Assembly: GCF_001598215.1 (NCBI RefSeq)
Contig: NZ_BCXJ01000004.1
Location: 186,001-250,000, forward strand
Source: Shouchella clausii
Lineage (GTDB): Bacteria; Bacillota; Bacilli; Bacillales; Bacillaceae_D
Length of the DNA stretch: 64,000 nt
Direction of reading: 5' to 3'
Shown here: piece after piece, positions 3,119 through 61,263 of the stretch
Layout of the letters: each line of letters begins with the position of its first letter
How positions within the stretch are numbered: position 1 is the stretch's first letter
The notes under the pieces: model-generated
The model's input: only the letters and a program-made list of their open reading frames with translations
Databases searched by the model: none
Told to the model about the DNA's origin: nothing
Position numbers and translations under genes: made by a program

Positions 3119-3370
3119 ATGCGCAATAGCGAGCAAGACTTCTTCTCAACAATGATGTTTGGCCCAAGGCCGCCAAGACAAAGCGAACCAATTAAACAAG
3201 AAGCGGAACCAGCGCCAGAAGCGACAGATGAAGTAGACAACACAAGCCAGCTCGTTCAAATTATTGCCCTGATCCAAGCAATTTCCCCTATTATTGAACA
3301 AGTCAAACCTGTCATTGGCGCGGCTAAAGAATTTTGGCAGAGCAAAAAAGAAACGAAAGAGAGCGATTAG
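3119..3370 (+). CDS. small hypothetical protein (YjzB position)
   Basis: 83 residues, not recognised by sequence. The first 40 residues are proline- and acid-rich and look disordered. The rest forms a hydrophobic or amphipathic helix (LVQIIALIQAISPIIEQVKP) with a charged tail, which could be a weak membrane or protein contact. A strong ribosome site (AGAAGGAGG) precedes the ATG. It lies divergent from fabH and convergent with comZ, in the place where B. subtilis has yjzB; whether it is that gene's homologue is not established. Confidence 0.7.
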   Translation: MRNSEQDFFSTMMFGPRPPRQSEPIKQEAEPAPEATDEVDNTSQLVQIIALIQAISPIIEQVKPVIGAAKEFWQSKKETKESD

Positions 3371-24282: not shown

Positions 24283-24431
24283 AACCACTGTTTGAGCATT
24301 TTTGGAACAACGAAAAAACGCGAATTCTGAACGAAAACTACATTTATTCGCCATCTGAACAAGGGAGACCTGAATGGCAAACATTCATAGAAGCCTTGAA
24401 AGCAGAAAGTGAAAAACGCCTAAAGGGATAG
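24279..24431 (+). CDS. 50-residue protein coupled to SNF2 gene
   Basis: Short reading frame, not recognised: MKPLFEHFWNNEKTRILNEN then a tyrosine/proline turn and a charged helix ending AESEKRLKG. AAAGGAG lies upstream, and its ATG overlaps the helicase stop codon as ATGA, so it is well placed for translational coupling. Its last codons and stop form one arm of the operon's terminator. Aromatic residues near the N-terminus and the amphipathic C-terminal helix suggest a binding partner of the helicase; that is inference. Confidence 0.65.
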   Translation: MKPLFEHFWNNEKTRILNENYIYSPSEQGRPEWQTFIEALKAESEKRLKG

Positions 24432-24455
24432 CTTTTGCTATCCCTTTAGGCGTTT
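24414..24455. terminator. 19-bp perfect hairpin terminator
   Basis: AAACGCCTAAAGGGATAGC pairs exactly with its complement across a TTTT loop. The minus-strand reading is followed by TTCAC after five T residues. It serves the SNF2 operon and, with the adjacent repeat fragment, the convergent lipoprotein gene. Confidence 0.88.
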
Positions 24456-24456
24456 C

Positions 24457-24474
24457 AGACTATAGACAGTTACT
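24457..24474 (-). repeat. dispersed repeat fragment, copy B
   Basis: Only the hairpin-proximal end of the repeat is present (AGACTATAGACAGTTAC), squeezed between the terminator stem and the stop codon of the lipoprotein gene. Confidence 0.5.
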
Positions 24475-26616: not shown

Positions 26617-26640
26617 GAAGCTGCCCTTTTAGGCAGCTTC
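26617..26640 (-). terminator. terminator adjoining repeat copy C
   Basis: GAAGCTGCC pairs with GGCAGCTTC; on the minus strand it is followed by TTTTAC. It would end transcripts coming from the small membrane-protein gene after they cross the repeat. Confidence 0.75.
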
Positions 26641-26742
26641 AGACTGTAAACAAATGCGTCGCTTAAGCAGGAAAAACACTGCTCATGAGCGCCTGTTCTA
26701 CTCGCATCTTCCCTCGCCTGACAAGCGTTTTTTATCAGTCTA
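26641..26742 (-). repeat. dispersed ~100-bp repeat, copy C
   Basis: Starts AGACTGTAAACAAATGCGTC and ends AAGCGTTTTTTATCAGTCTA on the plus strand. It shares an inner block, CTCGCATCTTCCCTCGCC, with copy E at 61094 (one base different at its first position). Lies between the stop codon at 26842 and a terminator. Confidence 0.8.
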
Positions 26743-26841
26743 GGCAATGGCAACAAACGCTCATCATTCTTTATAGCTCAACGAATATGTTTTGTCGGCA
26801 CAGAATAATGGTGTCCATTCTAAGTCGGTGCCGGCATGCAC

Positions 26842-47042: not shown

Positions 47043-47065
47043 AAGCAACGGACATTCCGTTGCTT
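47043..47065 (-). terminator. terminator adjoining repeat copy D
   Basis: AAGCAACGG pairs with CCGTTGCTT around a 5-nt loop. The minus strand continues with T8. It ends the DinB-like gene's transcript after the repeat. Confidence 0.88.
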
Positions 47066-47066
47066 C

Positions 47067-47132
47067 AGACTGTAGACAAACCTCGCGTACTTCTGTTTTT
47101 GCTGATCCGTTCGCCTTTCAACATCAGTTTAC
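47067..47132 (-). repeat. dispersed repeat, degenerate copy D
   Basis: Starts AGACTGTAGACAAACCTCGC, directly after the terminator stem, and ends near ACATCAGTTTA. It is shorter and more worn than copies C and E. Lies between the stop codon at 47147 and the terminator. Confidence 0.65.
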
Positions 47133-54920: not shown

Positions 54921-55031
54921 TGTTTGCACCTCCTCATAACATCAGACTCGCCATCATAGGCAGGACATGCCATTTAAACGCCTACTCTGCGCGGTTGTAA
55001 GTTCATTGGGTGCTTCTCCAAATCACCAACA
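54921..55031 (-). ncRNA. L21 leader (ribosomal-protein autoregulatory leader)
   Basis: The 5' untranslated stretch of rplU contains TTGGTGATTTGGAGAAGCAC, CGCAGAGTAGGCG and ATGTCCTGCCTATGATGGCG on the minus strand. These are the conserved blocks of the L21 leader known upstream of Firmicutes rplU, which is thought to let the operon's product control its own synthesis. Identified from recalled conserved sequence, not by covariance search. Confidence 0.8.
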
Positions 55032-61071: not shown

Positions 61072-61092
61072 AGAATCTGCATAGCAGATTCT
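61072..61092 (-). terminator. terminator adjoining repeat copy E (min operon)
   Basis: AGAATCTGC pairs with GCAGATTCT over a 3-nt loop. The minus strand continues with eight T residues. It ends the mre-min transcript after the repeat. Confidence 0.88.
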
Positions 61093-61093
61093 C

Positions 61094-61214
61094 AGCCTGT
61101 AGACAAACGCTCGCATACTTCGCGTTTGTCTCGGGCATATGTTTACGAACTCCCGTTCTATTCGCATCTTCCCTCGCCCGCACTCCTCAGCTGACAAGCG
61201 TTTTTTATAGCCTG
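61094..61214 (-). repeat. dispersed ~120-bp repeat, copy E
   Basis: The longest copy. Begins AGCCTGTAGACAAACGCTCG and ends CTGACAAGCGTTTTTTATAG plus CCTG. Internally AAACGCTCGC...GCGTTTGTC can form an extra short hairpin. Shares the block TCGCATCTTCCCTCGCC with copy C. Lies between the minD stop codon and the terminator. Confidence 0.8.
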
Positions 61215-61263
61215 GGTAAGGTTAGACTTTGTCGACAATCTCAAAGCTGCGCTCTGAGCGCAG

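Follow-up and report, generated by a model that had tools for sequence, protein, structure and literature searches.

The closest known miniature element appears to be EFAR (Enterococcus faecalis repeats), reportedly described by Venditti et al. in 2007 as sequences of ~170 bp with two independent stem-loops. EFAR are said to be inserted at unrelated stem-loop targets of 24–37 bp, most of which are duplicated, and no transposase is known to have been assigned to them.

Hairpins also serve as targets for larger elements. According to PMC5678879 and PMC4923244, the staphylococcal IS1182-family elements IS1272 and TnSha1 target hairpins of unrelated sequence, several of them confirmed terminators, and delete or replace the hairpin wholly or in part, with no duplication. 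In PMC5678879, duplication of the hairpin appears solely as a hypothetical outcome, drawn as pathway b. For ISPse1, a further member of the IS1182 family, PMC3281130 gives a duplication of 4 bp; taken with the hairpin deletion by IS1272, this entry suggests that hairpin duplication is not a property of the whole IS1182 family, which is mixed in this respect. Among miniature elements, YPAL/RU-2 from Yersinia is described (PMC2229807) as a 168-bp unit with internal inverted repeats; its target duplications vary in length (3–26 bp) and lie at dyad symmetries or beside them. The pneumococcal RUP, BOX, and SPRITE are presented in the parts of PMC10969869 and PMC2229807 used here as small interspersed intergenic repeats, of which RUP is thought to be moved by an IS in trans, has a TA dinucleotide target, and is linked to IS630.

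The repeat examined here occurs in a 64-kb stretch of DNA from Shouchella clausii (the window, meaning that whole stretch). We consider it likely that this repeat is a non-autonomous MITE that is inserted at rho-independent terminator hairpins, with duplication of the hairpin, by a transposase of an IS1182 subgroup acting in trans.

A 154-bp element and its copies in the window

The consensus, built from 49 sequences, is 154 bp long. Among 39 non-orthologous copies, 23 have this length, 12 others measure 142–156 bp, and 4 measure 178–191 bp, for a full range of 142–191 bp. The element begins with CAGACTGTAGACAAAC and ends, in reverse complement, with GAGGTTGTCGACAAAG, which together form imperfect terminal inverted repeats; the last bases on the right are uncertain because the final TC is missing from some copies, L016 and L025 among them. 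The consensus, folded as single-stranded DNA, is predicted to form a single long imperfect stem (CAGACTG...CAGTCTG) followed by a short right-end hairpin. A longer subfamily (L002, L004, L005, L006, and L008) carries an extra palindromic stretch of ~37 bp in mid-element, resembling TTTGAAACTGTCGTTTCATGCGC. The element is short, multicopy, and of defined length, lacks a transposase gene, and has the terminal inverted repeats, target duplications, and empty sites of a MITE. A preliminary description had taken the unit to be ~100 bp; the real element extends ~30 bp further to the right, and the sequence then read as its right end, AAGCGTTTTTTATCAGTCT, is internal, as copies in 30 loci show, with intact copies continuing ...GTCTGAGGGCGGTTATCGACTTTGTCGACAACCTC.

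Five copies had been proposed in the window, all on the + strand, and three of them are clear. Copy A (592–692) is shortened inside and has lost its right end; copy C (26640–26745) is diverged and has also lost its right end; and copy E (61093–61242), matching model positions 1–153 of 154, is the sole near full-length copy within the 64 kb. These three were retrieved by nhmmer at 53.8, 50.1, and 123.4 bits (E-values of 3.5e-16, 4.9e-15, and 1.4e-37, respectively), while 20 Markov-shuffled windows gave no match. Aligned to the family consensus, they scored 43 (over 592–684), 39, and 105, whereas the best of 200 shuffles of each reached 16, 19, and 17, respectively. Place D (47066–47102) is a truncated left end whose first 16 bases equal the consensus exactly; its score of 24 exceeded the highest shuffled score, 16, and it had no nhmmer match at E ≤ 10. 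Place B (24456–24468), a possible 13-bp remnant of the left end, scored 11, below the 14 reached by its shuffles, and its sequence alone is not above chance. Compared with shuffled DNA, the original set of five therefore keeps A, C, E, and, as a fragment, D, but not B.

A hairpin immediately precedes each of the five places: 563–590 for A, 24414–24455 (a long hairpin) for B, 26617–26640 for C, 47043–47065 for D, and 61072–61092 for E. Base 26640 is both the last of its hairpin and the first of the element. Copy E also has a hairpin on its right (61247–61263), which differs in sequence from the left one, such that a duplication is not preserved. None of the five places has a matching flank repeat; hairpin duplication is not visible at the window copies because all are too decayed.

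About 90 copies can be recognised in the host genome (G000). A 20-base internal motif, allowing up to 3 mismatches, occurs at 89 places in 4.66 Mb, versus 1 for the motif read backwards. Querying the same genome with copy C returned at least 56 matches at E ≤ 10, of which 40 fell below 2e-6; in this search, 40 of 92 candidates were scored, and the weaker matches include fragments that belong to one and the same copy. The proposed dispersed family with many more genomic copies is thereby confirmed, although the density of about one copy per 13 kb was off. There are many copies, but given the 89 motif places and 170 loose first-look candidates (40 of them scored), the number is not clearly in the hundreds, as had been suggested.

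A search of relatives places the element in 6 of 13 genus genomes (one of them, G006, with 3 weaker matches) and in none of the 28 genomes from elsewhere in the family. Its core pattern was found in 43 stretches of contigs from Shouchella tritolerans, S. rhizosphaerae, and Bacillus sp. JCM 19041. Plasmid records had no match to the consensus at E 0.01, and the exact 37-base left-end pattern was not found in viral contigs. The earlier impression that no named family matches agrees with Rfam, where no family reached the gathering score on the copies, and no title or abstract among the open-licence PMC matches listed describes the element family. The only Rfam match in the window at the gathering score is a ribosomal protein L21 leader (RF00559, 53.6 bits) at 54934–55006 on the − strand. 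Elsewhere in the host genome, partial element copies lie in tandem at L028 (G000:C4:531241-531533), and at 3193–3260 of L128 (G000:C2) the element's right end forms a tandem repeat.

Duplicated hairpins and single-hairpin empty sites

The telling feature, missed in the preliminary description, is a hairpin that borders intact copies on the left and again on the right. From 105 loci, we retained 51 intact elements, requiring both ends to be recognisable and removing exact duplicates, and 39 after dropping 12 likely orthologues. Matching flanks (score ≥ 12) were present in 35 of these 39, versus 7 of 1,482 cross pairs, and in 35 of 39 the copy's own right flank was the unique best partner; 4 of the 39 lack a matching repeat. 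The flank repeats span 20–34 bp (median 25) and fold as hairpins, with a mean dG of −14.2 versus −3.0 for base-shuffled sequences and 33 of 35 below −8. Their outermost paired bases coincide with the repeat ends exactly in 20 of 35 cases, are no more than 1 nt away in 26, and no more than 3 nt away in 34. Among random windows from the same loci, 3 of 700 were closed within 1 nt with dG < −8. Of the 8 bases preceding the left hairpin copy, 4.2 are A on average, and of the 8 following the right one, 3.8 are T, consistent with terminator tracts kept on the outer sides; the duplicated hairpins are usually terminator-like.

Proximity to gene ends is also what would be expected of a non-mobile structured 3′-UTR RNA or regulatory element that acquired two terminators through ordinary evolution or selection. 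By a crude ORF call, 20 of the 39 copies lie between convergent ORFs, 14 between tandem ORFs, and 3 between divergent ORFs, with 2 unclassed, and the consensus folds better than its dinucleotide shuffles (z −3.9, with 0 of 200 as good). Such an origin is nonetheless very unlikely: every repeat pair has its own sequence, different from the others, the element is patchily distributed within the genus, and orthologous sites free of the element carry one hairpin. To examine such sites, 12 joined sites were constructed, and 7 of them, three from the element and four from the IS described below, were searched in eight genus genomes with junctions aligned. All 3 element sites have a single-hairpin empty orthologue: L015 in G007, L019 in G007 and in the sister species G001, and L042 in G001 and, with lower similarity, in both G000 and its species mate G011. 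Some copies may still have gained a later function.

The element is palindromic, intergenic, and hairpin-targeting, attributes that would equally suit a hairpin repeat of the REP/BIME type, or one derived from IS200/IS605, whose movement as single-stranded DNA depends on an HUH (Y1) transposase. Elements of those types are not known to make target duplications, whereas 20–34 bp are duplicated at the sites of this one, and its ends are inverted repeats common to a DDE element. We regard this origin as the least credible of those considered. The empty sites and the duplications are the reason for preferring a terminator-duplicating MITE to both this origin and the regulatory RNA reading.

A candidate IS1182 partner

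A search for PF13751 across the 13 genus genomes found matches in 8. The sister species G001 carries five copies of an IS of 1536–1537 bp, with transposases that are 96–100% alike and belong to IS1182 (NF033551, 481.6 bits against a cut-off of 270; Pfam PF13751, PF05598, and PF01609). Four of the five are flanked by perfect hairpin repeats of 21–28 bp, and the fifth (L120) has none. Single-hairpin empty orthologues were recovered for 3 of 4 IS sites (L118, L123, and L124) in G000, G011, and G007; the L122 site has no clean empty orthologue, other DNA interrupting it in relatives.

The ends of the element resemble those of this IS1182 subgroup, with 14/16 and 15/18 positions identical to the G001 IS; the chance of each match is about 3e-7 if equal base frequencies are assumed. 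Comparison with the ends swapped gave 14/18 (element left versus IS right) and 10/18, which leaves the right end as the only clearly end-specific one; that end starts with different bases, G for the element and C for the IS. Related IS1182 elements with hairpin repeats, from another genus of the family and from Sutcliffiella and Peribacillus plasmids, have CAG--TGT(A/C)GACAAA-type ends, and the left end of one Peribacillus IS carries the element's first 16 bases.

Hairpin repeats recur among such elements. In a scan of 37 IS1182-matching loci, each split crudely, 8 had a hairpin repeat of at least 20 bp; two of these (L141 and L168) are the IS copies L122 and L118, and the scan missed L123 and L124, whose repeats are among the four described above. 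Many of the remaining loci are fragments or belong to other subgroups. Apart from the G001 copies, IS1182 elements with hairpin repeats were found in two genomes of the same family (G038 and G021) and on Sutcliffiella and Peribacillus plasmids. On plasmids from Peribacillus and Exiguobacterium (L203 and L204), each IS1182 end abuts a hairpin, but the two hairpins differ, as if recombination had swapped ends.

In the host genome and its species mate, the subgroup transposase had 0 matches at E ≤ 0.001, and the element family there consequently looks orphaned. The host does contain the broken remains of an IS1182 element of a different type (L031, G000:C3:193067-193391), but this was rejected as a partner, as it has no element-like ends and scores far below the IS1182 family cut-off. 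A host species now lacking the subgroup transposase, together with ends that are similar but not identical to those of the G001 IS, would accord with the same terminator-duplicating MITE owing its movement to a different, unsampled transposase family, with ends that resemble IS1182 by chance. We judge this improbable, since the IS1182 subgroup agrees with the element on two counts, its ends and its rare habit of hairpin duplication. From these sequence comparisons, an IS1182-type transposase is the most likely mover.

In the mechanism we propose, a DDE transposase of the subgroup would be supplied in trans, the target hairpin would be extruded as a cruciform, and the two 3′ ends of the element would be joined to the 5′ feet of the extruded hairpin. 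Joining at the feet would mean that gap repair copies the hairpin onto both sides, and the length of the duplication would in turn be set by the target. Both neighbouring genes would keep a terminator, comprising the hairpin and its outer A/T tract, with their 3′ ends lengthened by roughly 180 nt. Insertion into a terminator with its duplication looks like a way of spreading without depriving either neighbour of its stop signal.

Comparison with described elements

EFAR, as described above, and the present element share a duplicated stem-loop target; they differ in host and seemingly in sequence, and here an IS with similar ends and the same habit has been found. The enterococcal plasmid ISEfa7 group of IS1182 has a transposase about 59.5% identical, and one copy (L205) bears CAGACTGTAGACAAA, the element's left end, at both of its ends. 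The ISEfa7 elements, however, are autonomous IS, and hairpin duplication was seen at neither of the two copies examined.

IS1272 and TnSha1 resemble the element's candidate partner in having an IS1182-family transposase and hairpin targets, but they remove or replace the hairpin wholly or in part, whereas at the sites of the element it is duplicated. The 35 duplications found here fit the hypothetical pathway b of PMC5678879. YPAL/RU-2, as described in PMC2229807, is similar in miniature size and variable-length duplications, but its inverted repeats are internal rather than terminal and its hosts are different. RUP, BOX, and SPRITE are likewise small, interspersed, and intergenic; the parts of PMC10969869 and PMC2229807 used here do not describe hairpin duplication for them.

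A broader proposal, to which we give an even chance, is that the IS1182 subgroup with CAG--TGT(A/C)GACAAA ends, whose range takes in Shouchella, Peribacillus, and Enterococcus, recognises the structure of DNA and not its sequence, joining at the two feet of terminator cruciforms and making duplications of hairpin length. The subgroup would then drive the terminator-duplicating miniature elements of Bacillota, perhaps with EFAR among them, and its action would mirror the hairpin deletion by IS1272. The 35 duplications of 20–34 bp form a natural series whose length tracks the hairpin rather than a fixed stagger; combined with a candidate transposase group, this series makes structure-directed transposition at terminators testable. 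The element belongs with the known terminator-duplicating miniature elements, to which the candidate transposase group is a useful addition.
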